This document shows positions 1,752 through 19,900 of a stretch of 20,466 nucleotides of DNA, piece after piece. A program made the translations under genes and the position numbers. Below the pieces are notes generated by a model. That model was not told where the DNA came from, searched no databases, and saw nothing but the letters and a program-made list of their open reading frames with translations. The first letter of the stretch is position 1; every line of letters starts with the position of its first letter. Source of the DNA: a virus. The stretch covers positions 1 to 20,466 of the IMG/VR virus record IMGVR_UViG_3300021962_000816. One strand, given 5' to 3'.

Positions 1752-1764
1752 TTTGAGTTATAAA

Positions 1765-2190: not shown

Positions 2191-2195
2191 GATTA

Positions 2196-3044: not shown

Positions 3045-4486
3045 TAATATGTACCAAATGGATTTGACTCACTGAAATCTAAAATAGATTTGCCAAGAGC
3101 TTCGAATTCGTCGTTCTCGGTATATTTATCGTATGTATCATCCTGTATATAATATTCAACAGGATATGATGCACCGGATTCTTTACCTATCAAGAGTTCT
3201 CCTGGATAGAATCCAAACTGAGTAGATCCAATACTTACATTGGAAATCTTAAGAATCTTAGTGTCTTGATCCCACTCTTTGACTCTTGCTTCCGTTTTGG
3301 ATCTTGATCCATAAACAATTTCGTTGAAGTAAAAAGTTCCAAGACCTGCCGATAAGGATTCTGGATCAGAAATAGTAACTTGTGGTGAAGAACTATATCC
3401 TCTTCCAGGATCTTGAATGTAAATTGCTTTAAGAACCGAACTCGATCCTTCATATCCAATAGATGCAATACCAATTGCAGTTTTTGCAATACCACTAGAT
3501 GGAGGTGCAGCAACTGTGACTATTGGTGTTGATCCGTAACCAACGCCACCATCGGTAATAGAGAATCTTATGACTCCTTGTCCAGATGTTGTAATTGAGG
3601 CAGTTGCAGCAGCACCTACGCCACCACCACCCGTTATAGTTATGATTGGTGCTACCGTATAACCAGCACCAGCGTTTGTTAGTAAAATCTTTTCAATCGA
3701 TGTTACACCGCCTCTGGTTGTTATAAATCCAACAGCAGTTGCATTATCACCGACCTGTCCAGTTGGAGAAGATGTGATGCCAATAGTTGGAACTGATGTA
3801 AATCCAGATCCATCATTATTTAAGAAAATCTCATTGACATACCCACTTGATACTGTTCCAGAAATGAAAGCAACTGCCGTTGCTGTTCTACCAACACCAA
3901 TAAGTTTGAGAGTAGTAATATATCCTTCATCTTGAACTTGCGTATCAACTTCGCTAAGTGAAGTATCGATAATTTCATCTTCATACTCAAAGAGTTCACA
4001 TTTTAATTCATAAACGTAGTTTTTCCCCAATTGGAAAAATGGATTCTCATGCTCTACAAATTTAACTTCAAACAACCTTTCCCCAAGAGGAAAATAAATT
4101 AAATCTCCTTCTCTTGGACGTGTTGATAAAATTATCTCCCCCTCACCAGTACCATCATCTAAACCTGCCATGAATGGTGCGATAAAGTCTTCAAATCTTT
4201 CTTTTGATATTGTCAATACAAGTTCATCTCTGATACTTACACCAAACTTTGTTAAGATATCACCGGCACCAGAGTATCCATCATAGTTATTGACATATGC
4301 CTCAATAGCAAAGTTATCGTCAAATTTTGATGATTGAACTTCTTCTATAATTGATTTTGTATTGACATACTTTCTTGGTATATAAATTACCTCTACACCA
4401 TGAAATTTTAGGTGCTCATTAATTATATCCTGAACAAGTCTCTGCTCAGAAGCGGTTCCCTGTAGAAAAAAAGGATTAAGTGCCAT
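3044..4486 (-). CDS. gp14: Neck protein gp14 with a large repeat insertion
   Basis: gp14 joins gp13 to form the neck that closes the packaged head and receives the tail. T4 gp14 is 256 residues; this one is 480. The N-terminal part (1-190) carries the conserved MALNPFF start, the PRKYVNTKSIIEEV segment, RPREGDLIYFPL and NPFFQLGKNYVYELKCELFEYE. The C-terminal part (about 386-480) carries FGFYPGELLIG, DNDEFEALGK-like acidic sequence and the conserved end FSESNPFGTY. Between them lies a Gly/Thr/Ile-rich block of roughly 190 residues made of four units with a GxG(Y/F)xxxPxIxI core (GSGF 226, GAGY 273, GVGY 314, GRGY 361). The extra length is therefore explained by an insertion, not a fusion at an end. 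Both its start and its stop form TAATG overlaps with gp13 and gp15. Confidence 0.92.
   Translation of the reverse strand: MALNPFFLQGTASEQRLVQDIINEHLKFHGVEVIYIPRKYVNTKSIIEEVQSSKFDDNFAIEAYVNNYDGYSGAGDILTKFGVSIRDELVLTISKERFEDFIAPFMAGLDDGTGEGEIILSTRPREGDLIYFPLGERLFEVKFVEHENPFFQLGKNYVYELKCELFEYEDEIIDTSLSEVDTQVQDEGYITTLKLIGVGRTATAVAFISGTVSSGYVNEIFLNNDGSGFTSVPTIGITSSPTGQVGDNATAVGFITTRGGVTSIEKILLTNAGAGYTVAPIITITGGGGVGAAATASITTSGQGVIRFSITDGGVGYGSTPIVTVAAPPSSGIAKTAIGIASIGYEGSSSVLKAIYIQDPGRGYSSSPQVTISDPESLSAGLGTFYFNEIVYGSRSKTEARVKEWDQDTKILKISNVSIGSTQFGFYPGELLIGKESGASYPVEYYIQDDTYDKYTENDEFEALGKSILDFSESNPFGTY
3123..3130 (-). promoter_or_regulatory. Possible late promoter before gp15 (GATAAATA)
   Basis: The minus strand reads GATAAATA within the gp14 C-terminal coding region, 79 bases before the gp15 start. 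The first base differs from the T4 late consensus. It is listed only because of its position upstream of a gene start. Confidence 0.22.
3332..3913 (-). repeat. Four GxGY...P protein repeats inside gp14
   Basis: Four units of about 41-47 residues have the core GxG(Y/F)xxxPxIxI: GSGFTSVPTIGI, GAGYTVAPIITI, GVGYGSTPIVTV and GRGYSSSPQVTI. They are separated by Gly/Ala/Thr-rich linkers such as VGAAATAS. They account for nearly all of the extra length relative to T4 gp14. The units diverge in DNA and are recognisable mainly at protein level. Confidence 0.8.
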
Positions 4487-5331
4487 TATCCAATAAAGTC
4501 GAGAGGTGGAAGTTCATATTCCATTGCCATTCTGGATCTAATATCACTTAGTTCTTGCTCTGCTGCCTGATAGATTTCTCCTCCATTGAGTTCAATGCCA
4601 CCAGGAAGTTTAACGCCTTTGAATTTGCTAAGATTTTGTCCCCACTGCCTCTTGATCAAGGCAGTTAGATATCTTTTTAAGAAACTGTCATTATAAATTT
4701 GTGAAAAAGATGCTGGATCGAGTGCTCTATAGCATTCAAGAACTATAAAATCTCCTTCCGCTTGTGATCCCCAATCAATGTCCAAATATAATCTATCTTG
4801 TCTCTTATTAAATCTAATTTGTTTATCCGTTGTGAGTAAGAAATCAATATCTTCAAGATATGATTTTGTCATAGCATACTGCAAAAGTTCAACGGAATTG
4901 AAATAGTATAAGTCATTCAAGAAAAGTTGATATTTGATGCTGAACATTCCACCAGAAATTGTACTAGTATCAAAGCGGAATATTCTTTCAATACCAATTA
5001 CCGAATCTGGAACTTGGATAAAATTTGATGTCTCATAAAAATTGGAACTAATAGTTCCATATCCACTGATGTTGGTTGATGTTCCTGTTGTAGTTACAAT
5101 GCCAACACCAGATGTTCCAGATGCTTTTCCTCTATCAACATCATTTTGGGTAATTTTATATTTGAGAAACATCTTCTCAACACCATCATAATGACGCTCA
5201 TTGAAATATTGAATGGCATCATCGACTAGATCATCAATTTGATCATCATCAACGTTGATTTCCAATACGGGAGCACCAAGTTGACGTAAACAATAATCAA
5301 TTAATCCTTGCCTAGTTGATGGTTTTGCCAT
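4486..5331 (-). CDS. gp13: Neck protein gp13
   Basis: gp13 attaches under the portal after packaging and, with gp14, completes the head-tail connector. At 281 residues it is slightly shorter than T4 gp13 (309). The N-terminus MAKPSTRQGLIDYCLRQLG followed by acidic INVDDDQIDDLVDDAIQYF (25-43) is the conserved helical start. NDLYYFNSVELLQYAMTKSY, the DIDWG segment and ALIKRQWGQNLSKFKGVKLPGG lead to the conserved end MEYELPPLDFIG. A Gly/Thr/Ser-rich loop (about 67-98) interrupts the N-terminal half and probably marks a surface insertion. The start follows the 70-aa gene by 5 bases with a weak AAAGA ribosome site. A near-consensus late promoter box, AATAAATA, lies 43 bases upstream. Position and motifs agree, so confidence is high. 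Confidence 0.93.
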   Translation of the reverse strand: MAKPSTRQGLIDYCLRQLGAPVLEINVDDDQIDDLVDDAIQYFNERHYDGVEKMFLKYKITQNDVDRGKASGTSGVGIVTTTGTSTNISGYGTISSNFYETSNFIQVPDSVIGIERIFRFDTSTISGGMFSIKYQLFLNDLYYFNSVELLQYAMTKSYLEDIDFLLTTDKQIRFNKRQDRLYLDIDWGSQAEGDFIVLECYRALDPASFSQIYNDSFLKRYLTALIKRQWGQNLSKFKGVKLPGGIELNGGEIYQAAEQELSDIRSRMAMEYELPPLDFIG

Positions 5332-5336
5332 TCTTT

Positions 5337-5549
5337 TTACCCTTCAGACTTCTTAGATCTCTTTAGTGCATCATATTTATTTTGAAGATCAAGATTTGCT
5401 GCTAGAAGATTATTTTTTTCCTGATTGAAGTCATCAGTCAAAGTTTGTAATTTTGCTTCTAGCAGTACATTTTGATTTGTTAATCCTGCCAATTTTTGAT
5501 TATATAAACGAATCAAAACATTAATGTCAACTTCACTATCTTTTGTCAT
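5337..5549 (-). CDS. Small coiled-coil protein of unknown function
   Basis: This is a 70-residue protein that is almost entirely predicted coiled coil. Leu and Ile recur at heptad-like spacing through LIRLYNQKLAGL, NQNVLLEAKLQTL and AANLDLQNKYDALKR, with a charged tail KRSKKSEG. It has no signal peptide or membrane segment. It lies between the fibre-like gene and gp13, in the interval where T4 has wac (the fibritin whisker coiled coil), but it is far shorter than fibritin (487 residues) and no sequence match can be claimed. A role as a structural or assembly coiled coil at the neck or fibre is a guess from position. The start is preceded by GGAGGA inside the end of the 579-aa gene. The tight packing and conserved layout make a real gene likely. 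Confidence 0.8.
   Translation of the reverse strand: MTKDSEVDINVLIRLYNQKLAGLTNQNVLLEAKLQTLTDDFNQEKNNLLAANLDLQNKYDALKRSKKSEG
5374..5381 (-). promoter_or_regulatory. Possible late promoter before gp13 (AATAAATA)
   Basis: The minus strand reads AATAAATA, one base from the T4 late consensus at its least critical first position. It lies inside the 70-aa gene, 43 bases before the gp13 start. In an AT-rich coding region a chance match is plausible. Confidence 0.35.
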
Positions 5550-5552
5550 TTT

Positions 5553-7292
5553 TTAGAATGTTCCTCCGTCAAGAGTAGATGTCCAGTGTGGTTTATTAGT
5601 ATATATTACCGATACATTAGATGGGATTGAAGTCAAATCGGTAATGAAACCATTTTGACCTTCTCTTCTGATGTTATAGGTAGTTGTAAATGTTCCTTCA
5701 ACTCCTATAAGATCAACTGTTGATGAGCTACTAACAGATGTTTCGACAACACCATATGCATTAGAAGAATCCTGTCTAATTACATCACCAGCAGTTGCTG
5801 TAATTGCTGTACCGAGTGTTAATGTATTCTTTGTAATTGCTGTTAAGACCTGTTTTGAAGTTATAACAGGTGAAGCAGGATTGTTAGTCGATCTTTGCAG
5901 ACCAGTATCATCAAAGAATACAACACCATTGGTACTAAAATCACCAGCCTGGTAATATATACCTTTGATATCTAAGAAACCTTTTGTTCCAGTTACAACA
6001 CTATTTGTTATAGCTGCATCTGGAACATAAGTCCATCTTCTGCTGTTATCTGCATGTGTTCCATTTGTTAATGGAGTAACACCACTATCTGCGATTGAAC
6101 TATCATCAAAACCAAAGAACCCAACCTTATTGTTTGATGTTCCTGTGCTTGTGTTATAATTAAATCCAACACCACGATCCGTGTTTGTATCGAATGCGTG
6201 TGTAAAAGTTAATTGGGATGTTGTACTAATTCCACCAGTAACATTATCCTGAATAGTGATAATCTTATTAACACTATCATAGGATGTTACAGTAGATACT
6301 CCAGATATTGAAAGATTTGCGTTTCCACTAACAACATCACCTGTATTAATTCCTATTACGGAATCTAATCTAATCGTGTTTACACCGACAACAACCGTTT
6401 CCATTACGGTTCTTGCGCTTGTTACATCACCAAGGATGATAATAGCATCATTTAAATCAACCGTTGTTGAATTTACAGCAGTTGTTGTACCATCTACTTG
6501 GAGATTTCCTTTGATTACGACGGTTCCTTCATTGCTCAAACCGTCAGGATATGGGTCAATGTATAACGTATCGCCACTACCACTTAATGTCGATATTACG
6601 TTGTCTTCAATTTTAACAGAATCAAAGATGGCAGAACCAGATACACTAATATTTCCGCCAACATTGAGATTCTTCTCAATACCAACACCACCTTCAACTA
6701 CCAGTGCGCCAGTATCTTTATCTGTAGATTCGGTTGAATCTCCAATGACTATCTGAACGCCGCCATCAAAGTACCAATCGGCACCCTCAACCTCAAATCT
6801 ATCGTCGGTTGTTTCATCATAACGCATTCCTACGTTATTGTCATCACCAAATGATAGATACGTATTATCTGGAAGTCTTACGCTACCAATTCCAGCTGGA
6901 TCGATATTGATGTTGCCATCAGTATCTGTTGAGGTAATCGTATTTCCGTCAATTCTTAAATTATCTACGTTCCATTGATCAACTTTTAATGACTCTGCAC
7001 CACCTAATGCACTGTTTGTTGCAGGAGCCATAACGGCAACGACGCCGTTATCTTGATTTCTTGTATTCTGGACACCTGAGACAGCACCAGGAGAGTGCTC
7101 CATCATCGAGGTGTAGTAATAACCACCAACGGGATTGGCGTTAGTACCATCATCACCTAAGAAAATTCTGTCCTTGTATTGGTTTAGTCCACCGTAACTA
7201 CCAATACCTGTTACATAACCAAGTTCGCCCCATTGTAATGATGATGGTTTGTTAGTACCCGAGGATCTTTTGATCCTGATAATACTTGCCAT
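5553..7292 (-). CDS. Fibre-like virion structural protein
   Basis: This 579-residue, Thr/Gly/Asn-rich, beta-prone protein is built like a phage fibre. The N-terminus MASIIRIKRSSGTNKPSSLQ with GELGYVTG is a recurring attachment-type start in marine T4-like structural proteins. It is followed by a DGNTITSTDTDGNINIDP segment (115-132), SFGDDNNVGMRYDE (147-160), TGALVVEGGVGIEKNLNVGG (194-213) and NLQVDGTTTAVNSTTVDLND (263-282), all known fibre-type repeats. After NDAIIILGDVTS (281-292) comes an inserted segment of about 75 residues before FDTNTDRGVGFNYNTSTG, which resumes the usual fibre sequence. It ends TSTLDGGTF, echoing the NINGGNF-like end of the gene upstream. It could be a neck whisker, a collar fibre or a side tail fibre; nothing visible decides between these. 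A GGAGG ribosome site lies 11 bases before the ATG. The gene is probably driven by the late promoter at 7554-7547. Confidence 0.85.
   Translation of the reverse strand: MASIIRIKRSSGTNKPSSLQWGELGYVTGIGSYGGLNQYKDRIFLGDDGTNANPVGGYYYTSMMEHSPGAVSGVQNTRNQDNGVVAVMAPATNSALGGAESLKVDQWNVDNLRIDGNTITSTDTDGNINIDPAGIGSVRLPDNTYLSFGDDNNVGMRYDETTDDRFEVEGADWYFDGGVQIVIGDSTESTDKDTGALVVEGGVGIEKNLNVGGNISVSGSAIFDSVKIEDNVISTLSGSGDTLYIDPYPDGLSNEGTVVIKGNLQVDGTTTAVNSTTVDLNDAIIILGDVTSARTVMETVVVGVNTIRLDSVIGINTGDVVSGNANLSISGVSTVTSYDSVNKIITIQDNVTGGISTTSQLTFTHAFDTNTDRGVGFNYNTSTGTSNNKVGFFGFDDSSIADSGVTPLTNGTHADNSRRWTYVPDAAITNSVVTGTKGFLDIKGIYYQAGDFSTNGVVFFDDTGLQRSTNNPASPVITSKQVLTAITKNTLTLGTAITATAGDVIRQDSSNAYGVVETSVSSSSTVDLIGVEGTFTTTYNIRREGQNGFITDLTSIPSNVSVIYTNKPHWTSTLDGGTF
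5563..5567 (-). promoter_or_regulatory. Ribosome binding site GGAGG for the 70-aa gene
   Basis: GGAGG on the minus strand is formed by the Gly-Gly codons of the LDGGTF end of the fibre gene, 13 bases before the ATG at 5549. The spacing is longer than ideal, so its strength is uncertain. Confidence 0.45.
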
Positions 7293-7293
7293 G

Positions 7294-7521
7294 TCAGAAA
7301 TTTCCTCCGTTGATGTCTAAATTCTGAGTTGCCCCTGGTGTGAGTTCCAACGTTGCTTCCCACTTTCTAATGCTACTGTTATAAACAAGTACCATACCAT
7401 TTTGTAAGTTAGAAGCACTAACATCACTGAGTTCTGCCAAAGACAGTCCCTGGGCACCTGCAAGCGAAGATATAACTTTTACTGCTGGTTGTTGACCTAC
7501 TCTGACTTTGATTTCAGCCAT
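7294..7521 (-). CDS. Small structural-type protein with C-terminal INGGNF motif
   Basis: This 75-residue protein has a beta-rich N-terminus (MAEIKVRVGQQPAVKVISSL), a middle LAELSDVSASNLQNGMVLVY, and WEATLELTPGATQNLDINGGNF at the end. The LSDV...LxNGxxLVYNS...KWEA pattern is one I associate with short fibre-associated proteins or fibre C-termini of marine phages, but I know no assigned function. It ends one base before the 579-aa fibre gene and shares the final (N/D)GGxF signature with it, so the two products may interact or come from a common ancestor. It is the first gene after an exact late promoter box that ends 25 bases upstream of its ATG. The leader has no obvious Shine-Dalgarno. Confidence 0.82.
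   Translation of the reverse strand: MAEIKVRVGQQPAVKVISSLAGAQGLSLAELSDVSASNLQNGMVLVYNSSIRKWEATLELTPGATQNLDINGGNF
7304..7308 (-). promoter_or_regulatory. Ribosome binding site GGAGG for the fibre gene
   Basis: GGAGG on the minus strand lies 11 bases before the ATG at 7292, inside the last codons of the 75-aa gene (the Gly-Gly of INGGNF). Most other genes here lack a clear site, so this one stands out and supports the chosen fibre start. Confidence 0.65.
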
Positions 7522-7546
7522 TTATATACAGTTCAGGATCTAAGAA

Positions 7547-7554
7547 TATTTATA
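7547..7554 (-). promoter_or_regulatory. T4-type late promoter box TATAAATA
   Basis: The minus strand reads TATAAATA exactly, in the 36-base gap between the 57-aa gene and the 75-aa gene. T4 late promoters consist of this -10 element, read by the sigma-like gp55 with the clamp-activated polymerase. Transcription would start a few bases downstream, giving a leader of about 20 bases before the ATG at 7521. It would drive the 75-aa gene, the fibre gene and probably the neck genes. Confidence 0.85.
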
Positions 7555-7557
7555 TTG

Positions 7558-7731
7558 TTAAGATCCCATGAGAGAGGTAACAACCTCTTGCTGTTTAAAG
7601 TAAAGTTTTACGTAAGATTTTGCAAGATTACGTAAATCTTCCAAAGAATCAACCTTGTCAATTTCAGACGCTATTTTGAAATATTCAAAACTTTTGGTTA
7701 GATTTTCCAACTCAATTTTGTCTGGATCCAT
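7558..7731 (-). CDS. 57-aa conserved-type small protein
   Basis: This is a short gene. It encodes MDPDKIELENLTKSFEYFK, then IASEIDKVDSLEDLRNLAK, then SYVKLYFKQQEVVTSLMGS, ending in TAA. The acidic N-terminus followed by an amphipathic helix with NLAKSYVKLYFKQQEVV resembles a small protein family I have seen repeatedly in T4-like cyanophages near the tail genes, with no assigned role. The start overlaps the end of the upstream 75-aa gene by 20 bases in another frame, and the stop falls just before the late promoter box. There is no other gene in this interval, and the compact packing elsewhere argues that the stretch is coding. The helical, charged composition would suit a small assembly chaperone or core-binding protein, but that is speculation. 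Confidence 0.8.
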   Translation of the reverse strand: MDPDKIELENLTKSFEYFKIASEIDKVDSLEDLRNLAKSYVKLYFKQQEVVTSLMGS

Positions 7732-7939
7732 TTGTAAGTTCCTTTAATAGAGATTTAATTTCTTCAATATCACTTTTTATTTGATTAAGTTCATCTTTTT
7801 CTCTTTGTTTCTGCTCTTTCATCCTAATATAATTCGAATATGCAGATTTATCTGTATTAACGATAGCACCAGTAAATCTATCCCTAAAAAGGTTACTGTA
7901 ACCCTCTACAGGTATTAGGTCCTCATTGTCATTGTTCAT
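7712..7939 (-). CDS. Small protein with C-terminal coiled coil
   Basis: Starting from the ATG at 7939 this is a 75-residue protein. A TTG five codons upstream (7954) is also in frame, but the ATG lies 1 base after the stop of the giant gene and begins the conserved-looking MNNDNEDLIPVEGYSNLFRD, so I prefer it. The N-terminal half holds the pattern LIPVEGYSNLFRD...TGAIVNTD, and the C-terminal half is a charged coiled coil (KEQKQREKDELNQ, then SDIEEIKSLLKEL). I recognise the VEGxxxLxRDxxTGAIxNxD pattern from small conserved genes of marine T4-like phages, without known function. No Shine-Dalgarno is evident, so translation may be coupled to the giant upstream gene. Its end overlaps the next small gene by 20 bases. 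Confidence 0.83.
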   Translation of the reverse strand: MNNDNEDLIPVEGYSNLFRDRFTGAIVNTDKSAYSNYIRMKEQKQREKDELNQIKSDIEEIKSLLKELTNGSRQN

Positions 7940-7940
7940 A

Positions 7941-10900
7941 TCATGCAAGAGCAATTGCTCTGAAATCTTTGAGTTTTACTGGTGTCGATTCATTCGTAGA
8001 AGAAAGAACAACCTTAATAACGAATGCATCAAATTGATCCAGATTATTTGCAGTAAACTGATATTCTGAGAATGATTGTGGAGTATTGGGAGATACAAAA
8101 GCATCAGCTTTTCCACTATTTTTGCTTGGATCAATTACTTCATCTCCAAATCCATCACCATCAGTATCCTTCATATTATCATATCCAGGGAAAGGAACGA
8201 ACTTCTGAGTAATCTCAGAAGAATCTGCCTTAAACAGTTTATAGAAGACTCTGAAATCAGCACCTTCTTGTCTGTTTGCACCGATCATAACACGGAGACT
8301 TGTTGCTGGTTGTTGTAAACCAGTCATCTTTGTGACGAATACTGCACCATGAGGATCACTAGTAACTTCATTTGATCTACTATCCTCCACATAATTATCA
8401 ATTGGGTTATTTGATTTGTTTCTTCCAAGAACAAACGTTGCATTCTGAATATCCATTACAGGAGACAGATCTTCGTTTTCAGTCTTAAAGTCTACGCTTA
8501 AAGTCAGTGATTTATTTGAAGGAAGATTTGTAAGTCTTGTTGTTTCATTGATTCTGGAAGCAACCATTCTTGGTGTGCGGAAATGTAGAACTCTATTCAG
8601 TGGAACAGATTCAAATCCCTGATCAATGAATGAAGTTTCATCTCCACCAGCACTTGTTCCAGAAATTGTTCTAATTCTGCTGCTTGCAGCGGTTCCTTTT
8701 CCTGGAGTGATCAAATTGAATATTGGTTCAATTGTACTAAACTGATGGTTTTGTGAAATTCCAACAGTATTTCCACCAAATCCTTTTTGTGATGCAAAGT
8801 TGAGCATACTTCCACCAGAAGATCTGTTGGTTGGGGTTGATCTATCAAATTCCAAATAGTAGTTGTCAAGATTAGAACTTTCGTTCTTATAATATGTTGA
8901 AGGAATGTCATGTGTAGTATTGATTCTCATAAGAGAAACACCATTTACTTCATATGGTTGAATGAAATCGGTTGATGGGTGGTCAACTTTAACCGTCCCA
9001 TTCAGATTTCTTCCATCAATTGTAAGAGTTCCTGCTCCACCAGAACCTGCTGTAATAGCACTATAAGAAACGACTTCATTTTGAATCAGAGCATAACCAC
9101 GGCTAGTTGTAATTCCTTCAAAAGTGCCAAATGGTACTGTGTTTGCAACAGATACGGTAGTATCATTCAATCCAAAGTTGGAATTTAATGCAATCTTTTC
9201 TCTGTCTGGAAGAACATTAGTAATTTCAATCTTATTGTTTCCACCATGATGTGCATGGTTATACTGTTTGATTCTGAAAACATTTCCAGTGAATCTATCA
9301 TCAATGAGACTTGAAGTTCCATTTACTGTGGTTGGACCAGAAGTATTTGTTCTTGTAGTTTCATCAAATTGGTTTGTGTAATATACAATAGTTGATGAAT
9401 TAGTGAAGTTTTCACCTTGTACATTTGTGAGATAAATGGTATCAAATGTATTGTGTGCCTGAACACTGATTTTTGCACCAGCACCTCCACCAATACTTGC
9501 TGTTGTGATACCCAGAACTTCACCGTCAACATATCCATTACCGGATGTTGTAATGTTGACAGCAGTAATTACATTTCCAGTAACTGTAATAGTTGCCTGA
9601 GCGCCAGTTCCTTTTCCTGAGATCGAATACAGAGGTATATTGCTGTATGGGGATCCAGAACTTGGATACTGACTTCCAGATGTTAAAATACTTACACTTC
9701 CAGTTCCTGTTGGAATTCCTCCACCAAGATTTTCAACAATACCAGTAATGCTTGGACTTGTTCCCTGACCAATTCTAACTCCTGGTTTGATATTAGAAAT
9801 ATCTGTTGCATTAACACCAGATACTGAGAGTTTCAGTTTTCTTGGTAAACCTTCTATTGGATTGTTCACGAGTTTGGAAACGTTTGTTCCGTTTGGAGTA
9901 ATATCAGAATTATGGAATGTAAGAGTACCAGATGGAACAAATTTTGCTTTATAAAGTTTGAATGTCAGATCTTGATATTGGCTTGCTGTCCAAATTGTAC
10001 CATTTTGAGACTTGAACAGAGATCCACCAATATACTGCTTAGTGACAACAACATTTTGAACGTTTGGTAAGTTTTGAGTTGTAACTGTCTTCTTACCCAT
10101 TGTCGCAGTCCACATCTCATATCCATCAGATGCGGGAGAAAGAATTACAATTGCATATTCCTTATTCGCCTCAAGATAAACAGGAGATGGGAATCTGACT
10201 CTTGTTGGAACTGGTTCGAATGGATTTGCCTCATTGATATTAATATTTTCTGGATTAAGAGCAATTTGCGTATAATCCTGAACCAAGAATGATGTTGGAG
10301 TTCCGAGTTCAACTGTTCTAAGTTCAACATAAATTTTTGCACCAGGATCTTTGGTTGCAAAATAAAGATCAAATGATGTTAAGAATGCACCTCTTCCATC
10401 AACAGTAAACGATTGTGCAAGAGGGTCTCTATGTGGTGCTTTAACTTCGACATTAACTTCTGTTGCCTTTGCTGCTGGTTTGGGTGGATTTCTAACTGCA
10501 ACACGACTTGTTTCTTGTGTAAGAATCGTTCCAGATCCACTATATGATCCAAGTGCTTCACTAGCAAATACTGTCGATCCAGGAAGTGGAGTAACACCAG
10601 GTGGAACTGCTGTAACTTTTACGGTTTTTGTTCCACTCTTAACCTTTACGGGTGGTGGTGGACTTCCATTTGGATCTCTGAAGAAGAAGTTTGCAACAAT
10701 ATCTCCCCAGTTATCAGATACGAGTTCTGCTCTGGTAATTTCGGCAATTGCACCACTACTTCTACCAACAACTCTTGCACCAGAAGTTACATAACCATAA
10801 TACTTTTCATCAGTTGCCAGTGCTCTTACACCAAAGTTGATCAGTTTTGATGTTGGTGAATATGATTCTCCAGGTGCGGGACGTGTTCTATCGTATGGAT

Positions 10901-13900
10901 CAACACTATATGTCTCAACCAATACCGCAGGAGATCCTAATCCAGCACCAATATCTGGTCTGCCTGTATCTCCAAACTTATGATTTGGTTTTTGAACTCT
11001 AATGTAACCAATCTTTCTTCCACCATAGAAGACATCTGCATCTTCAAATACCTGGAAAGTTCCAGAAACCATTTCGATTTCGCAAAGTTTTGGTACAATA
11101 TCAACTTGCTGACTATCAAGATAATGATAATGCTTTGTAAATGGTCTCAATCCATTAGCATTAAAATATACGTTTCTTGAACGCATATATGGATCAACAG
11201 TTCCAGAAATCTTAACGTCTTCAACGTAATTAAATTCTCTTGAAGGACCAGTAAGTTTTGGAGTGTATGCTGTTGTTGTGGTTGTGGTTGTTGTAGTAAA
11301 GGCTTTGGTTACCTTTTCTCCTCTACCACCACCTTTTTTGTAGGTTACATATTCGGTTTGATTATCAACATTAACGTTTACCTTTGCTTCCTGCACCCAC
11401 TCAGCACCAGTTGATTCTACTCTATGGTCATCAATATAAATTGTTCTGACCCAGTTATCGGATTGTGGATCGAGTGCAATACCACCGACAAACACAATAA
11501 CATTGAATGGGTTAACATTTTCAACGTTAGTTGCATGTGGTTGAGTAATCCAATCAACTTCCGTATATGCAAGTGTTAATAAATCACCTGTCTTTTGGAT
11601 ATTTGGATCAAGAAGTTTAAGGTTCTGGGATAAATCTGCTTTGGTTCTATCGATACCAGGATCGAGTGCTAATTCGGCTTGCATTGACCAAAAGTCAACA
11701 GGTGCAATTGCAATAGCACCCTCTTTACTTACATCAACAGTGCTGTATCTGGGATCTGCAAGAGATTTGTCCTTGAAGTCGCTAACAATAAATCCAGATT
11801 TGAATCTATTTAAACCATTTGCATCAGTTACTTCCAGTGTCTTTGCATTCAATTCAAGCATAGACAAACTGGTAACTTCTTCAAGATTTTCAATTCTTTC
11901 TTCAAGTTTTGCGATATCACGCATCGTGAATCTTCTATTATCACGAAGAAGAATTTTTGGATCTTTTGCTGGATTGTAGAGATATGCTGGAAGTTTAATT
12001 TGAGCAATTTCCATTGCATCATCAGCAAGCACAGGTGCTTGTGGTGTATCACTTGGTTCACCTTGTACGACCTCAACTTCACCGAGACGGTTCAGTGTAA
12101 GTAAGTCAATTCGTGGCAGATAGTAACTATATCCAATAAATGAAGTTTCGTCTGGTGAAACAATATATCTGTAGTTTGATTCATATGATCTGCTGCTAAA
12201 CGCAAATGGCGATGCATTTGTGCTTGAAGGATCAAATTCATTAACTCTTGGTCTAAAATCGAGAAGATCTGTTACTCTGACGCCATTTGGAATGGCAGGA
12301 ATATCAGAGGTATATCTTTCTTGGGTATATGAGTTAACAGTGAAAATATCACCACTATTTCCAGGGGCAACTTTATAGTAGTTAAAGATGGCAAGAAGTT
12401 GTTTTGATGGAACTGTACTTCCTTGCTTTCTTCTAATTCTGGAATAATCACAATACTGATTCTTATGACCCTTGTCGAGGATATAATTATCAGTTCTATC
12501 TACATAACTGCCGTTTGTTACTTCCTGAATTACTGCACTAATTGAAGAATCTTTGAATTTAACAGTTTCCCCAACTTCAAAGTTTTCTTCGTTCAGATAA
12601 ACAAAGTCTATTGTTGTTGCAGTTTTATTGACTACCTGAGCAACTGCTCTGCTATTTTGACCAACAATTTTTTCACCAGTAATAGCATTTGTATCAAGAG
12701 CCAGACCAGTTGCAAATGTTAATTTGTCTAAAACTGGTGCTGATGTATTAGTTGACTCATAAATCGCAATAACGTTCACTACGTCTGGAACGTTCAGTGA
12801 AATTTCTTCATCTTCAACTCTTAAACCATAATAAACACTTGTCGTAAGACCAGATGCGGTTGAAGATCCACTTGTTCTTGTGACTGATACTTGTCTACTT
12901 CTTTCAAAGTTCTTGGATTTGTTGGTAACGTTTCTCTTCTTCAGAGTTACGTTTACTGTTACATTATTTGTTTGGCTTGCAACAAGATTTGTAAATGAAA
13001 TTGATGCGCCATTTGGTCCAAGAGTAAATTGATCAGATGTTAGATCTTCTGTTGAACCATCATTATAATGAATCGAATATCTCTCAGCATCAAATGCTTC
13101 AAAGAATGCGCTAGAAATTCCAGCAGCAGCGTCCAATACTTCACTAGTTGTGATTGTAAGTGTGCCAGTAGCACTTGTTGTTTTTCCAGTAATCTGTTTA
13201 GTAATCGTTAATTCGGAAGATGCAAGATCTACTGATGAGATATTAGATTCTGGGAGTTCTGCATAAAGACCAGAAGCATCAACACGACTGATCTTTGGTG
13301 CCATGATTCTAAAAATAGAATCACCATTATCAACGTTTGCTCTTGCAATACCAGAAACACTAGAATCTAATGCTGCAAGTCCAATCGTTGTTCCATTAGA
13401 AGCAATTGAAGTAATTCTATTGTAGTTTGGATCTGTCTGACCACTTGTTTGGTATGCAATAATTGCTTCTGTTTTGATTCCAGTTACTGCACTAAAAAAT
13501 CTACCTGGAACCGCACCAGTATTTCCACCACTAACAGTCAACTTATCTGTAATAGAGAAGTTTGGTGGCATGTATTCATAAAGAACAGTATCTGCAATGA
13601 AGTCTGTTCTCAATGATGCATTCAATGTATCAGAATTTTGCCATACGGATTTGATATCTTCTACTACATGAGCATCGATGGCAGAAATACCAACTTTATA
13701 CTCTGGATTTTCGTTAATGATTACTTGCTCACCAACTAAAAACTCACCAGAAGTTTGTGATAGACTAAATGCTGCATTATTTGGTTTTGCTGCAAGATAT
13801 CCAGTTGCTCCACTAGAAAGACCTCTTACAAATGAAGTCAGTGGAACTTGTAATGTAGAGTATTCCTTACCGAGGTAAAGTGTGGTATATGTTTGAATAT

Positions 13901-15323
13901 CATAGAGATAAAGATCCCATTCTGTGGTTGCTCCTGTATATGGAGCATCAGAAACACCATACCAATATACTCTTGCCTCACCAATCTTCAGACCAGTTCC
14001 TGCATTAGTTGTAGCAGTGTTTCTTCTTCTGTTATAAAGTTCGATTACATTACTTCCACTTCCAACAGGAGCACCAATATTGAGATAAGGAACACCATAT
14101 ACATTATTAACCTTTAAAAGACTTCCCATTGCAAATGGGACTAATGCACCATCAATTTTTTTGGTTGTTCTTGGTTTGGGGACATCTATAATTGTAGAAC
14201 CAACAAGGTCAATATCAAAACCTTTAACGTATGCGGTTCCAGCAGATGCTCTAACACACATCAAATCATCATTAGGTAGATTACCCTGCTCAGTTCTTTG
14301 TCCCTCTCTGTAAAGGCCTCCGTTGCCAGTCTCGTTGTTCAGTGAATTGACGACATCAACCTTAAATGGATCGATTGCGTAGTTACCAGACTCTTCAAAA
14401 GTTCTCTTCGCAAAGTAATCTCTTATGAGACTATATTGAGACTTATCTTGAAGTTTTTTGATTTTGCCCTGATCAACTTTTACAAGCTCTACAAAGTTTG
14501 TATCTTCATAGTCTAAAAGTTGTTTCTTCGCTAGTTTAACACTTATTTTTAATCTATCTGCACCTGGTGCTGCATAGTTAGTAAATCCTTTCGCATTATC
14601 ATTCAATGATGAATCATCATCGGAATTGATAATTTCTTCTAAGATATCAAATCCAACTCTATAAGATGGTTCATTATTATATGGATCGAGAATAATTTGA
14701 GTTGTAGGAACGTCTACAAATACTCCTCTGATAAAATAAACACCCTGAGAAACTCCAACTGCATATCCAGTTGCCGACGCATCTACTGGAAAAACAGTCA
14801 GTGCAGTATCACCACTGTTTAGAGTTGTGTTGCCGTATGTTACATTCTCTTCGAGTACTAATATCTCACCATCTTCAAATTCAACTGTTTCTCCATCAGT
14901 TGCTCCGTCACGATATTTGACAAATAGAGTAATCTCTTCAACACCCTCAGATGGTGGAAGTAAATATCCCTTTAATGTACCAACAATGCCAGATGATTGA
15001 CCTCTTACCTTCGTACCTTTGCCATTATTCGCATTAACTATGGCATCAAGATAGACGGTAATATCAATACCCAAATGATCTGGATTTACCTTTATAGTAG
15101 TGAAGGCATTATCACAAGTAACCCCACCAGGGATTACCATAGATCCTTCTTTAAAGATATGACTTCCAAAAGACTCTAATTGATTTTGTAAAATCGATTG
15201 AAGACCTGTAAGTTCTCTTGCCTGAACTGGGTGTCCAGGTTTAAAAAGAACCCTATAAAAGTTATCCTCCTTATCAAAATCGTCATAATAAGGATTTACA
15301 TTGAGATTAGTCTTTTGTGGCAT
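7941..15323 (-). CDS. Giant DUF4815-type tail/baseplate structural protein
   Basis: At 2460 residues this is the largest gene in the window. Its N-terminal part carries the DUF4815 signature: NPYYDDFD, FYRVLFKPGHPVQARELTGL (22-41), HIFKEGSMVIPGG (55-67), and later AKRTFEESGNYAIDPFKVDV and AYVKGFDIDLVG. A conserved coiled-coil segment follows DNRRFTMRD at about 1136-1160. A run of nine Thr (1343-1351) looks like a flexible hinge. From about 1633 there is a DPLAQSFTVDG...FLTSFDLYFATKD domain, ending with SLFKSQNGTIWTASQ near 1770-1790. GxGY-type repeats lie around 1890-1945. The C-terminal domain has a DTDGDGFGDEVID loop (2386-2398) and ends DFRAIALA. It follows gp8 by 3 bases, in the place of T4 genes 9-12 and wac. 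It is probably a peripheral baseplate or tail-fibre-anchoring component; adsorption specificity is possible but not shown. No enzymatic motif was seen. Confidence 0.88.
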   Translation of the reverse strand: MPQKTNLNVNPYYDDFDKEDNFYRVLFKPGHPVQARELTGLQSILQNQLESFGSHIFKEGSMVIPGGVTCDNAFTTIKVNPDHLGIDITVYLDAIVNANNGKGTKVRGQSSGIVGTLKGYLLPPSEGVEEITLFVKYRDGATDGETVEFEDGEILVLEENVTYGNTTLNSGDTALTVFPVDASATGYAVGVSQGVYFIRGVFVDVPTTQIILDPYNNEPSYRVGFDILEEIINSDDDSSLNDNAKGFTNYAAPGADRLKISVKLAKKQLLDYEDTNFVELVKVDQGKIKKLQDKSQYSLIRDYFAKRTFEESGNYAIDPFKVDVVNSLNNETGNGGLYREGQRTEQGNLPNDDLMCVRASAGTAYVKGFDIDLVGSTIIDVPKPRTTKKIDGALVPFAMGSLLKVNNVYGVPYLNIGAPVGSGSNVIELYNRRRNTATTNAGTGLKIGEARVYWYGVSDAPYTGATTEWDLYLYDIQTYTTLYLGKEYSTLQVPLTSFVRGLSSGATGYLAAKPNNAAFSLSQTSGEFLVGEQVIINENPEYKVGISAIDAHVVEDIKSVWQNSDTLNASLRTDFIADTVLYEYMPPNFSITDKLTVSGGNTGAVPGRFFSAVTGIKTEAIIAYQTSGQTDPNYNRITSIASNGTTIGLAALDSSVSGIARANVDNGDSIFRIMAPKISRVDASGLYAELPESNISSVDLASSELTITKQITGKTTSATGTLTITTSEVLDAAAGISSAFFEAFDAERYSIHYNDGSTEDLTSDQFTLGPNGASISFTNLVASQTNNVTVNVTLKKRNVTNKSKNFERSRQVSVTRTSGSSTASGLTTSVYYGLRVEDEEISLNVPDVVNVIAIYESTNTSAPVLDKLTFATGLALDTNAITGEKIVGQNSRAVAQVVNKTATTIDFVYLNEENFEVGETVKFKDSSISAVIQEVTNGSYVDRTDNYILDKGHKNQYCDYSRIRRKQGSTVPSKQLLAIFNYYKVAPGNSGDIFTVNSYTQERYTSDIPAIPNGVRVTDLLDFRPRVNEFDPSSTNASPFAFSSRSYESNYRYIVSPDETSFIGYSYYLPRIDLLTLNRLGEVEVVQGEPSDTPQAPVLADDAMEIAQIKLPAYLYNPAKDPKILLRDNRRFTMRDIAKLEERIENLEEVTSLSMLELNAKTLEVTDANGLNRFKSGFIVSDFKDKSLADPRYSTVDVSKEGAIAIAPVDFWSMQAELALDPGIDRTKADLSQNLKLLDPNIQKTGDLLTLAYTEVDWITQPHATNVENVNPFNVIVFVGGIALDPQSDNWVRTIYIDDHRVESTGAEWVQEAKVNVNVDNQTEYVTYKKGGGRGEKVTKAFTTTTTTTTTAYTPKLTGPSREFNYVEDVKISGTVDPYMRSRNVYFNANGLRPFTKHYHYLDSQQVDIVPKLCEIEMVSGTFQVFEDADVFYGGRKIGYIRVQKPNHKFGDTGRPDIGAGLGSPAVLVETYSVDPYDRTRPAPGESYSPTSKLINFGVRALATDEKYYGYVTSGARVVGRSSGAIAEITRAELVSDNWGDIVANFFFRDPNGSPPPPVKVKSGTKTVKVTAVPPGVTPLPGSTVFASEALGSYSGSGTILTQETSRVAVRNPPKPAAKATEVNVEVKAPHRDPLAQSFTVDGRGAFLTSFDLYFATKDPGAKIYVELRTVELGTPTSFLVQDYTQIALNPENININEANPFEPVPTRVRFPSPVYLEANKEYAIVILSPASDGYEMWTATMGKKTVTTQNLPNVQNVVVTKQYIGGSLFKSQNGTIWTASQYQDLTFKLYKAKFVPSGTLTFHNSDITPNGTNVSKLVNNPIEGLPRKLKLSVSGVNATDISNIKPGVRIGQGTSPSITGIVENLGGGIPTGTGSVSILTSGSQYPSSGSPYSNIPLYSISGKGTGAQATITVTGNVITAVNITTSGNGYVDGEVLGITTASIGGGAGAKISVQAHNTFDTIYLTNVQGENFTNSSTIVYYTNQFDETTRTNTSGPTTVNGTSSLIDDRFTGNVFRIKQYNHAHHGGNNKIEITNVLPDREKIALNSNFGLNDTTVSVANTVPFGTFEGITTSRGYALIQNEVVSYSAITAGSGGAGTLTIDGRNLNGTVKVDHPSTDFIQPYEVNGVSLMRINTTHDIPSTYYKNESSNLDNYYLEFDRSTPTNRSSGGSMLNFASQKGFGGNTVGISQNHQFSTIEPIFNLITPGKGTAASSRIRTISGTSAGGDETSFIDQGFESVPLNRVLHFRTPRMVASRINETTRLTNLPSNKSLTLSVDFKTENEDLSPVMDIQNATFVLGRNKSNNPIDNYVEDSRSNEVTSDPHGAVFVTKMTGLQQPATSLRVMIGANRQEGADFRVFYKLFKADSSEITQKFVPFPGYDNMKDTDGDGFGDEVIDPSKNSGKADAFVSPNTPQSFSEYQFTANNLDQFDAFVIKVVLSSTNESTPVKLKDFRAIALA
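9500..9660 (-). repeat. GxGY-type repeats in the giant protein
   Basis: The region encodes SISGKGTGAQATITVTG, then ITAVNITTSGNGYVDGEVL, then SIGGGAGAKISV. This is the same strand-GxGY-strand pattern with a Gly/Ala linker seen in gp14 and the gp7-like protein. Confidence 0.6.
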
Positions 15324-15326
15324 TGT

Positions 15327-16886
15327 TTAAAATTCCAGTATAACTTTAATGTCTTCTTTTTGACGTAAGTTCCTAGAAATACTAGGTCTATTATCAAGAT
15401 AGATTAAATCTCCTGATCCTTTATTTATTTCAGGAGTTGCCAAACCATTTGTAAAGTTAACACCAAGATTAACTAACTTTGTTCCGGTGGGATTTGTGGT
15501 TATACCAGCAAATCCAGTATCAATTGAAGCGGTAAATCCTGAAGATTGTCCACTAATAAAGTTTGATGATGATTCAAAATCATATACTCTACCATTGGTA
15601 GATATTCCAACATAATCCTGTTGATCGTATGTTGTTTGGTTATAATAGAGGGAACGATCTCTAAAATACTTCATAACACTGGTTTCAGAATCCCAGGAGG
15701 CAACATATCCGTATGCCTTACCAACTCCACCAGATACGGATTGCTCAATTTTTTCACCAATAGTTGGAGATCCTGTGATTGAAGAGAACTTCAATGAATA
15801 TAATCCAGTAAATGTATTGTCAGTATAGGTTTGAGTTGATCCAATTGAAGTTGGATTTTTTACGATACCTACCTGAGCAAAACTTGTATCTACTGGGAAA
15901 TCTTTTGTGGAGTCATCAAATCTTGCATAAACTAAAACTTTATCAGTACCAAGTTCCTTGTAGATATCATATCCATGACCCTTTGAGGGAGGAATGATGG
16001 GAACAAGTTTTGCACTAGTTCCTGTCGTATTTGCATTTATTGCACCCAAATCGACAAGAGCATATGTGTAACCCTTTCCACCAGAAGTAACAACCGCGTT
16101 GGTTATTTTTCCACCTTCAACATCAACTCTAACTTTTCCACCAGTTCCATCACCAAGAATGTTTAATTCTTGTCCAAGACCATTGGAGTAATTTGATCCA
16201 GATCTTTCAATATAAACTGTTTTAATTTGATTGTCATTTACCGAAGAATCTGCCGATTCTCTTATTGCTCTTATTTGTGGATCTGTTGAAGACCCCCAAG
16301 CATTTGGAACAGTAATATATTCGGTAGAATCAAACTTAATAATGTCACTGGGAGATATAGTGAACAAATATTTCCAGATATAACCATCACCACTATCACC
16401 AGCTCTTGATGGTTCTAAATCCGTAAAGGTTGGTTCATCCTGAGAAACATTACCTTTCAGATTCGTCCCGCTAGAACCATTTTCAATACAGATATAAACA
16501 CGGTAATCCGAATTCATCACATAGTAATTTGCATCATAGAGTCTCGATGCATTAGTCAATGGGGAAGGATTGCTGACACTGTAATCATCACGATACATTT
16601 CATATCGGTTTCCAGAAACCCAATCTATTCTTCTAATGATTCTTCTAATATTTGCCGAAGTTATTCTCTTTCCATACAAAGAAATATCTCCCGAGTGCGT
16701 GTTGTAAGCAAAGTTATCAACAGGTGCAGGAGGATTTGTATTCCAAGTAGTAGACCTCCCAAAACCAACTGCTGTTGGATTTGAGAGATTTACCGTAATA
16801 TAATAGGAGTTAGAGGAGGATTCGACTGACTCTACAAAATTACTGGCATTCAGAATTCTAAACTGATCAGTAACAATCGCTGACAT
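15327..16886 (-). CDS. gp8: Baseplate wedge protein gp8
   Basis: gp8 is a dimeric component of each baseplate wedge that binds gp7 and gp10 in T4. This copy is 519 residues against 334 in T4. Conserved T4 features seen in order are AIVTDQFRILNASNF near the N-terminus, VGFGRSTTWN (40-49), IRRIDW (84-89), DGYIWKYLFTI (167-177), EYITVP (189-194) and the C-terminal IYLDNRPSISRNLRQKEDIK leading to the hydrophobic end VILEF. Most of the extra length lies after residue 215: a Gly-rich stretch with ERSGSNYSNG and TSGGKGYTYALVDLG (222-283), which is a copy of the GxGY repeat type found in other virion proteins here, and a further segment up to about 480. An exact late promoter box ends 18 bases upstream of the ATG. 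The ribosome site is weak (AGATAAAAG). Confidence 0.93.
   Translation of the reverse strand: MSAIVTDQFRILNASNFVESVESSSNSYYITVNLSNPTAVGFGRSTTWNTNPPAPVDNFAYNTHSGDISLYGKRITSANIRRIIRRIDWVSGNRYEMYRDDYSVSNPSPLTNASRLYDANYYVMNSDYRVYICIENGSSGTNLKGNVSQDEPTFTDLEPSRAGDSGDGYIWKYLFTISPSDIIKFDSTEYITVPNAWGSSTDPQIRAIRESADSSVNDNQIKTVYIERSGSNYSNGLGQELNILGDGTGGKVRVDVEGGKITNAVVTSGGKGYTYALVDLGAINANTTGTSAKLVPIIPPSKGHGYDIYKELGTDKVLVYARFDDSTKDFPVDTSFAQVGIVKNPTSIGSTQTYTDNTFTGLYSLKFSSITGSPTIGEKIEQSVSGGVGKAYGYVASWDSETSVMKYFRDRSLYYNQTTYDQQDYVGISTNGRVYDFESSSNFISGQSSGFTASIDTGFAGITTNPTGTKLVNLGVNFTNGLATPEINKGSGDLIYLDNRPSISRNLRQKEDIKVILEF
15422..15429 (-). promoter_or_regulatory. Possible late promoter before giant gene (AATAAATA)
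   Basis: The minus strand reads AATAAATA within the end of gp8, about 99 bases before the giant-gene start. It differs from the late consensus only at the first base. It codes for part of the gp8 C-terminal region, so chance cannot be excluded. Confidence 0.3.
16038..16223 (-). repeat. GxGY-type repeat insert in gp8
   Basis: Residues 222-283 of gp8 hold one degenerate unit (ERSGSNYSNG...LNILGDG) and one good unit (ITNAVVTSGGKGYTYALVDL), in a region absent from the shorter T4 protein. The pattern of a hydrophobic strand, then GGxGY, then a strand matches the gp14 repeats. Confidence 0.65.
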
Positions 16887-16904
16887 CTTTTATCTTTTTT
16901 TATG

Positions 16905-16912
16905 TATTTATA
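16905..16912 (-). promoter_or_regulatory. T4-type late promoter box TATAAATA before gp8
   Basis: This is an exact TATAAATA on the minus strand in the 28-base gap between the gp7-like stop and the gp8 start, and it ends 18 bases before the ATG. It is the second of only two exact copies I found, and both are in the only intergenic gaps longer than 15 bases. It likely drives gp8 and the giant gene. Confidence 0.85.
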
Positions 16913-16914
16913 GG

Positions 16915-19900
16915 TTATATGTTAGAAAGTTTTCTAATCGCTCCACTATTTCTCAATCCAAAGGTTCTTCTTTGAATTGATGGGAATGTTGATAATCCAG
17001 AATCAACAGTTAATCCTGTGACTCCGATAGAAATTGGATTAGATCTTGCAGTGTAATTATATATTCTACCCCAGGAAATATTTCCTAATGGCATTGCGGT
17101 AGATCCTGTGGTTGCGATTCCAACAACAGCACTAGTGCTGTGAATATTACACAATATCTCAGCATCTGGTCCAAAATTAACCTTAGAATTTACAATATAA
17201 ACATTATCTAAGAAAGCAGTACCTATTGCAACAATCGAAGAATCTTCGCTGTTAACAGAAGTTACGCCAGTTCCAACTGTTGTATTGTAAACAAGTAATG
17301 GATAACCAACTTGCAAGTCATTAGCGTCTGATGCATTTGCACGGAAATTAATCTTAAGTGCAAGAGGATGACCACCAGTTCCTGTTGATGTGCTGATTCC
17401 AGTAATAATTCCAGAGAATCCTTGGATATTTTGGATTCCTGCAATTAATTCTTTGGTCATTCTAGGAACTTCTGCAATAATTTGTGGTGGATTTGTATTT
17501 GTATATCCAAATCCTGGATTTGTTATAGTGATAGAAGTTACCGAACCGTTAACAACAGATGCTGTGGCAGTTGCTGTTGTTCCAACTCCAACTCCAATAT
17601 GAGATGGAGCAGCAAATTTAACAGGAATTGATGCAGTAGAATATCCAAGACCAGGGTTTGTAATTGTAACTGCACTTATTGTTCCTGCAATTGATACTGT
17701 TGCAGTAAATGCTGCCGAAACGGGATCAGATCCCTGAACAATCAATCCATCAACGGTATTAATTGTAATTCCATAATTATTTTCTTCATAGTTGAAGAAC
17801 TGTGCATCATCAACAAATATATCTGTTGATCCTGAATTTATATCTCCAATAATCTTTCCTGTTGGATAAATTTGTGGTTCAAGAGAATCTCTTGTCTTAT
17901 AAACAATATCACCCTTGATGTACTTATCACTCTTTTGCTTGATCCAATCAAAAGGTCTGAATATCGTTTCATCAATACCAGTACCAACATAGATGTCGGT
18001 TTCAATGGTATCAGATCCTAAAAGATCTGCAATGGTTCTCTGGCGAAGTTGATTTACGGTTTGTTGATATAGTGGATGCTTTTTAACAAAAACGTCATCA
18101 CCAATCTTGATGGTTTCATTTATGTCTATCAATCTAACATCAATGCCATCTTGACCAACATAGAAGAAGATGTCAACTTTATCTGATACTTTTGGTGCTT
18201 CTGTGAATATAAATGATGTTCCACCACTAAATTGATATGCAACTCCTGGTTGTTGTAGTACACCATTAACAAATATAATAAGAACGGCATCAAGATCAAT
18301 AGCACCAGAAAGAGGATTATTTGGGTCAATTTCAAAACTCAACAATTGACCATTGTAATAAAGTGGGAATCTTGTTCTATATCCATCTTGGAGTAATCTT
18401 GTATTATCAATATAATCCATTTCTCCGAACGACCATGAGGAGAAGAAGTCATTAAAGGTTTCTACAACTTCAAGTTGGAAATCTGAAACTGGTTCTGCAT
18501 AATCTTTTGCTGTAACAAGTCCAACAACTTTCATAACATCACCAACTTGGAATCCATATCCAGGTCTTGTGATTTCAAACGAATCTACAATGAATAGAGT
18601 TGATCCAATACCAACATTTGTACTTGCCGCACCTATTTTAACGTTGAGCAGAAGGTTATTTCCAGTTTCGGTGGTTGCACCAATACCAAGTCTAGAAACT
18701 CCAATAACTGGCATGTTTTCATAAACTGGTTGTGGAATATCAATGTATGGTTCAACATATCCAGATCCACCACTGTTAATTACAAATCCAAGTGTTCCAC
18801 CAGCACCAACAACTGCGGAAATGCTTGCCGCTGTTCCAGAGTGATTTGGATCAGTAACTCCAATCGAAACTGAATCTCTATATCCAGAACCATTATTCAG
18901 ATCAAAGTACTCATAAACAGTACCAAATCCAACGTAATTGTGTACAATCGTGCTAGGACCAACATTAACTGTTAATGATGTAGTTGAAAGAATATTAACA
19001 ATATCATAAGCGCGGTCAATTTGATTTGGTTGATCTTCTGGGAAGAATGAGGTGATTCCAGGATTGGTTGGACAAGTGAATGCTAATCCAACTAATTTTA
19101 CTCTATCACCACCACTCAAACCGTGTGCCGATGTGGTTTCAATTTCAATAATACCGGAGACATTATCATAAGATGCTGTGCTAACTCCCAAACTTGCCCC
19201 AGTAATTGTGGTTCCAATGCTAATAACATCAACAATAGAACCAGATCCATCAAGAACTGCTCTAACCTTTGCCCCTACAAGAGGTGCGTAACCGAGACCA
19301 GGAGTAGATCCGAGAGAAACGATTAAACCACCTCTTGGGAGTTGATTCTGGTTGATATCAAAGTCAGATTTAATGTATGAACCGTCTGTGGATGTAATTC
19401 CAGTGAAGACAACACTAGAAATACCAGCAACAGTATCATTTTCATACTCGTAGTTATTACCAGAATTGTTTATAGTAGTTGGTGTCTGGAATACTCCATT
19501 AATGAATAGGATGCCATTACCAACATCAACACCAGTAGTATTGATACCTTGAACGGTTAATGTATAAGTTTTTCCAATACCAGTGAAAGTATCAGAAATA
19601 TCATCAAAGACCATATTCGTGTCATAATTTGATCTCAGGAAAGTTCTTCCAGAATATTGTGCCTTCACATATGGAAGGTTGCTTTCGTTTCTTCTCGCTC
19701 TTGAATTTCCTTTTGGTGGATCAATAAACCAAACCTCATTACCTACAATATTGATGGATCCTCTATAAATCTGAACGTTTGTCCCATCAGTGTGAGTGGT
19801 TGCTGCACTTCCAACAGATCCTCTTATAACAGATACTGTTGGGAATGTGGCAGCACTACCTGCTTGGATGATTCCGTTAATTGGACCGAGAAGAGCTCCA

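Follow-up and report, generated by a model that had tools for sequence, protein, structure and literature searches.

The window analysed here is the whole 20,466-nucleotide stretch of viral DNA in IMG/VR record IMGVR_UViG_3300021962_000816 (positions 1 to 20,466), and the subject of this work is a short repeat, built around a GxGY turn, in several of the virion proteins that it encodes. It comes from a marine T4-like phage. All genes and features described lie on the minus strand, where the order is C-terminal gp7, gp8, a giant protein, small proteins, gp13, gp14 and gp15, the same as in Prochlorococcus phage P-SSM2. Four of the products concern us. The first is a gp7-type baseplate wedge protein (16915..20466; assigned by phrog_2885 and P-SSM2 synteny), which continues past the window edge, so that the C-terminal 1183 residues are available; its P-SSM2 counterpart by synteny has 5195 residues. 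The second is the gp8 baseplate wedge protein (15327..16886; PF09215), for which the predicted model returns the fold of T4 gp8 (Z 15.1), and the third a giant virion protein of 2460 residues (7941..15323), matched by Pfam to DUF4815 and by PHROG to phrog_358. The fourth is the neck protein gp14 (head closure Hc2; 3044..4486; PDB gp14, E 3e-24), in which the T4 gp14 neck core is present at residues 3-179 (PF11649, E 4e-30, Pfam). The closest gp14 among phages of the annotated collection is that of Marine virus AG-345-E02 (genus Salacisavirus, family Kyanoviridae). The window's gp13 (4486-5331), like all other cyanophage gp13s aligned, is shorter than T4 gp13 at the fibritin-binding domain, where the alignment is uncertain.

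A repeat module shared by four virion proteins

Sequence comparison confirmed the recurrence of a module, about 43 residues long, in gp14, gp7, gp8 and, more weakly, in the giant protein. We count four units in gp14, two pairs plus single motifs in gp7, and one pair each in gp8 and the giant protein. GxGY motifs were compared with residue shuffles of each protein: gp14 has 4 (0.14 expected), gp7 has 5 (0.40), gp8 has 3 (0.20) and the giant protein 2 (0.44). In gp14, the repeat block occupies residues 196-395 (3302..3901), ahead of the C-terminal barrel, as delineated by an AlphaFold2 model and profile matches. Its units 1 to 4, located by motif count and a unit profile, carry the turns GSGF (3716..3850), GAGY (3584..3715), GVGY (3449..3583) and GRGY (3311..3448). 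The gp8 pair spans residues 219-300 (GSNY and GKGY; 15987..16232) and is supported by profile-profile comparison and by a fold match to domain I of the T4 sheath protein gp18, while that of the giant protein, found by profile matches, spans residues 1866-1955 (GSQY and GNGY; 9459..9728). Profile matches also delimit gp7 pair A, at residues 510-600 (GSGY twice; 18667..18939), and pair B, at residues 925-1012 (GLGY and GFGY; 17431..17694). A lone divergent unit at gp7 residues ~620-665 (18472..18609) emerged from comparison with a domain I profile; its GYGFQVGD is the pattern nearest to GSNYAVGD of T4 gp18. An isolated GLGY at gp7 residue 388 (19207..19344), seen by motif count only, may be a single or degenerate unit.

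These counts refine those of the original prediction, made from the sequence alone: its four units in gp14 stand, its "one or two" in gp8 and in the giant protein become one pair each, and its "about six" in the gp7-like protein become two pairs and single motifs. Two motif matches were false and were rejected. GDGYIWKYLF at gp8 residue 164 belongs to the conserved T4 gp8 core, and DTDGDGFGDE at residue 2387 of the giant protein (window ~8136-8165) has the look of a calcium-binding loop. A similar likeness is seen in DKNNDGVINQLD at the C-terminus of gp15, near 2280-2330; Pfam gives gp15 a weak dockerin match (E 0.04).

Profile-profile comparisons, based on alignments of about 130 to 300 homologous rows for each protein and with 112 reversed segments as decoys, carry the link between the hosts. 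With the gp14 block (205-395) as query, the top match was gp7 901-1000 (E 8.6e-10), followed by gp8 201-300 (2.3e-6), gp7 501-600 (2.5e-6) and gp7 951-1050 (3.1e-6); giant protein 1851-2000 (E 4-5e-4 per comparison) ranked last and is the weakest host. The matching segments scored 28-60, versus 17.8 for the best of the 112 reversed segments. Thus, the earlier claim that neck, wedge and large tail proteins have one module in common holds, and a gp14-based profile rises above background once homologues are included. The simpler check proposed with that claim, a profile of the four gp14 units, was under-powered: gp7 was found weakly, at 10 bits, and neither gp8 nor the giant protein was recovered. 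With the addition of close gp14 homologues alone this profile turned gp14-specific, while a further profile (A4) found all the window hosts but had been partly trained on them. As had also been predicted, the module lies in regions of gp14 and gp8 that the T4 homologues lack, T4 gp14 being without the block and T4 gp8 being much shorter than the window gp8.

Independently built PHROG profiles cross-match in the same regions of gp14, gp7, gp8 and the giant protein. They do so because the profiles phrog_460, 438, 701, 708, 2885 and 5342 include the unit; these are whole-protein families named for their hosts, and none defines the module. Sequence searches of Pfam, NCBIfam and the PDB returned no family name for the unit, and no description of the repeat was found in the literature available among open-licence papers. 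In phage HTVC008M, the gp7-position protein I899_gp055 (L087, 33435-36485) is labelled head closure Hc2, whereas Pfam makes it a baseplate wedge subunit. The label probably arises because phrog_460, the "head closure Hc2" profile, contains the repeat, and this would explain how whole-protein annotation can mislead.

The gp14 insert changes by pairs of units

Comparison of gp14 with and without the block, which the original prediction had called for, proved informative. In the Kyanoviridae, the block sits within a small barrel that is uninterrupted in P-RSM6, S-RIM44 and S-SSM4, whose gp14s contain no units; two are present in S-WAM2, ACG-2014d and S-RIM12, and four in P-SSM2 and the window phage. 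Distances from an EGDL motif to the barrel cluster at about 80, 160, 250-270 and 520-530 residues and are never intermediate, and the median unit spacing is 43 residues (the viral-contig loci behind these classes were picked by similarity, and class sizes are not frequencies). The insert therefore varies by whole pairs, with zero, two or four units per gp14. In a phylogeny of the neck core, the two-unit S-WAM2 is sister to S-RIM44, which has none (support 100/99), while ACG-2014d and S-RIM12, with two units, group with S-SSM4, with none (support 100/100). Since two-unit and zero-unit gp14s are sisters twice, there were at least two independent gains or losses.

Other domains enter the same loop. 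In the longest distance class, FG-GAP repeats, seven and six, accompany a pair (L477 and L486; gp14 open reading frame at 1492-3595; FG-GAP_2, E 8e-75), and the gp14 of Sf-FS3 carries a LamG domain in this region (L444, 301-2592; LamG, E 3e-7). FG-GAP or LamG insertions, which have other folds than the GxGY pair, were found in three of the gp14s examined. We conclude that the gp14 loop accepts insertions of surface-type domains. Residues 178-256 of T4 gp14 are disordered before tail joining and then bind gp15 (PMC12270204), so the gp14 inserts, by analogy, probably project from the neck-tail joint.

The barrel that receives the GxGY block is itself a second shared module, a small beta barrel with a GExIxGxxSGA pattern, present in gp14, gp8 and the giant protein. 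In gp14 it covers residues 386-470 (3077..3331), as located by profile matches and a model search. It also occurs in the giant protein at about 51-200, 451-600, 801-950, 1451-1600 and 1901-2000, and in gp8 at 351-450, with scores of 24-32 versus 16 for the best decoy. Structural matches of this region of the gp14 model were weak, to translation-factor-like barrels and the JBD30 baseplate protein.

Predicted fold and probable relation to T4 gp18 domain I

In an AlphaFold2 model of gp14 built from 58 gp14 sequences, residues 191-400 are predicted with a pLDDT (local confidence score) of about 80 to 94 as repeating triplets of strands. In the gp8 model, residues 222-300 superpose on T4 gp18 99-188 in three T4 entries (Z 5.4-5.6, 72-74 residues, root-mean-square deviation about 3 A), and the module also matches the KP1 sheath (Z 4.7). 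The beta fold that had been suggested for the units is thus borne out at the level of prediction. The T4 residues matched by the gp8 pair are exactly domain I, which has been described as a six-stranded barrel with a helix. The domain stands out from the sheath, touches no other gp18 subunit and serves to bind the baseplate as well as the long tail fibres when these are retracted (PMC3004832). Two three-stranded units would account for the six strands of this barrel.

Because the Z values are modest, sequence was taken as an independent test. T4 gp18 holds IDYTISTPGSNYAVGDKITV and, further on, GKIKKINIPTGKNY, two units with the turns GSNY and GKNY. A domain I profile (33 Straboviridae rows) placed GxGY segments first, those in gp7, gp8 and the giant protein, with 29.1 versus 17.8 for the best decoy. 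In the opposite direction, a profile made only of cyanophage and pelagiphage sequences (11 sequences) hit the T4 genome just once at E<=0.01, in gp18 domain I (E 0.0079). When Straboviridae were held out of the training set, the top matches among 147 Straboviridae open reading frames all fell at gp18 residues ~100-150, reaching 17.0 bits, while the decoy maximum was 10.3. Similarity to gp18 domain I thus exceeds composition-matched decoys in both directions. The Pfam family of the domain, PF22639 (Gp18_dom_I), gave best sub-threshold scores of 13-16 bits in cyanophages and pelagiphages, all of them located on GxGY units. The P-SSM2 and P-RSM6 sheaths have no PF22639 match, and the window copies lie in gp14, gp8, gp7 and the giant protein, not at the sheath location of the family.

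Mutations G106S, S175F and A178V in T4 gp18 inhibit fibre retraction (PMC3004832). The affected residues fit the T4 gp18 sequence only when the initiator methionine is not counted, and this numbering puts G106 on the first glycine of GSNY. Beyond this shared site, the module resembles T4 domain I (PDB 3FO8/3FOA) in the predicted fold of the gp8 pair, as far as the modest Z values allow, in having two units with GxxY turns, in a length of ~85-90 residues and in being inserted as a whole domain into a loop of another domain. It differs in residing in neck, wedge and giant proteins, in reaching four units in gp14 and in scoring below the Pfam cut-off, while domain I has an added helix and GSNY/GKNY in place of GxGY. 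Judged by sequence and models, the module is most likely a divergent relative of gp18 domain I rather than a filed PF22639 member, and common descent of the two is supported. The earlier statement that no named family could be recognised therefore remains true of the unit itself, while a related named family does exist.

Spread and age of the units

Profile matches number 12 in P-SSM2, 12 in ACG-2014f, 22 in P-RSM6 (mostly inside one protein of 8573 residues), 4 in HTVC008M and 17 in Sf-FS3. The four proteins named by the original prediction do carry the module, but it is not confined to them: whole cyanophage genomes have 12-22 matches, and siphophage-type tail tube proteins and bacterial proteins contain it as well. 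A search of bacterial genome contigs with the unit consensus found it on chromosomal contigs of many phyla (L530-L569). Among the carriers are tail tube proteins, with the pair lying inside the domain in a lambda-like protein on a Pseudomonas contig (L541, 2656-3393) and at the C-terminus on an Arthrobacter contig (L545, 2455-3222); both loci are presumably prophages. Other bacterial carriers are long multidomain proteins, one of them with a GH64 glucanase domain. No unit match was found in a search of plasmids.

Units of the window genome share at best 24-40% identity pairwise, whereas each window unit tested shares 50-71% with its positional counterpart in P-SSM2. As same-position units of another phage are closer than units of the same genome, the spread is old; by sequence, the units are diverged and orthologous across phages, and their copying is not recent.

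The behaviour of the module is comparable to that of phage Ig-like domains (Big_2, FN3), promiscuous virion add-ons that vary among close relatives and occur also on the tail tube (PMC8718954); it, too, is promiscuous and variably present. Unlike those domains, the module is predicted to be related to gp18 domain I, with its six-stranded barrel and helix, and Pfam matched no Ig-like family to it and, at E<=1, no Ig-like or Big family to the window hosts.

Discussion

We consider it fairly probable that the module, which is shared by different virion proteins, enters in pairs, has been repeatedly gained or lost and interchanges with FG-GAP or LamG at one site, is a promiscuous domain of the virion surface, serving in docking or adhesion, related to gp18 domain I and inserted pairwise. 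Its building unit would consist of a long strand, the GxGY turn and two more strands in ~43 residues, and the working domain would be a pair of units with about six strands. Such a pair would enter whole into loops of gp14, gp8, gp7 and the giant protein, leaving their cores undisturbed. As an exposed knob, it would hold fibres or neighbouring tail parts to the particle, as domain I does in T4; alternatively, it might make weak multivalent contacts with the cell surface. The shared surface role proposed by the original prediction is made plausible by the link to domain I and by the binding-type domains in the gp14 loop.

Several observations weigh against this interpretation. Z values of 5-6 and scores of 10-17 bits give modest support to the link with domain I; the gp8 module is modelled with middling confidence (pLDDT 73-90), and gp18 was not listed in PDB structure searches with the gp14 model, whose N-terminal core is of low confidence. 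PF22639 stayed below its cut-off of 27 bits in every cyanophage searched and was absent from the window. The domain I profile also scored gp8 351-450, which belongs to the other module, and part of its signal may be generic beta sequence. The multidomain copies on bacterial chromosomes show that the unit need have no connection with fibres. Finally, it is by analogy that we infer surface exposure in the window phage, and docking or adhesion, for the cyanophage copies.

A possibility that we hold with some doubt is that the pairs form a weak carbohydrate-binding adhesin touching host or particle glycans. The interchange with LamG and FG-GAP in the gp14 loop, the array of units in the bacterial GH64 protein and the analogy with Ig-like domains (PMC8718954) would agree with this, but among solved lectins there is no significant match (best E 1.5).

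It is unlikely that the units act purely as cement, bracing neck and baseplate against their neighbours with no binding of fibres or cells. They do occur in core assembly proteins, and in those of three distinct sub-assemblies, and stability has been proposed as a role of added sheath domains (PMC9230969). However, sister phages without the block keep an otherwise intact gp14, so the block is dispensable, and T4 domain I contacts no other gp18 (PMC3004832).

We give a similarly low probability to the proposal that the gp14 copies replace the T4 fibritin collar (wac) and hold the tail fibres along the neck. T4 domain I binds retracted fibres (PMC3004832), cyanomyoviruses have been reported to lack the fibritin gene wac (PMC2984593), and cyanophage gp13 is ~40 residues shorter near the domain that binds fibritin in T4 gp13 (PMC12270204). 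Yet the gp13 alignment is uncertain at just that place, phages with zero-unit gp14 exist in the same family, and the gp7, gp8 and giant copies sit elsewhere on the particle. The broader version, in which one domain family is plugged in throughout neck, baseplate, tube, giant and bacterial proteins, and its neck copies in marine T4-like phages take over fibre docking from the fibritin collar, seems to us no likelier; with the same reserve, the T4 sheath domain I would be the sole member of that family recognised here with a solved structure.

That Gly/Thr-rich beta repeats converged through composition and turn preference, with no common origin, is improbable. The motif is short and identities between units of one genome are low, but decoys matched in composition, whether reversed or shuffled, fail to score, the similarity extends over whole 80-residue pairs, and the PHROG profiles, built independently, cross-match. 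Intragenomic copying had been offered by the original prediction beside a decoration or stability role, and the several copies per genome might suggest it; recent copying between these genes is hardly credible for this genome, as every unit tested is nearer to its P-SSM2 positional counterpart than to any unit of its own genome.

We therefore regard the proposed docking or adhesion domain as the preferred explanation. The module is newly seen as an insert shared across virion proteins, and it would be a divergent relative of a domain that is already known. T4 gp18 domain I thereby provides a structural anchor for a repeat of abundant marine phages that is nameless in Pfam and NCBIfam. Since there are sister phages whose neck protein has or lacks a single unit pair, the role of domain I in T4 becomes testable by comparison.

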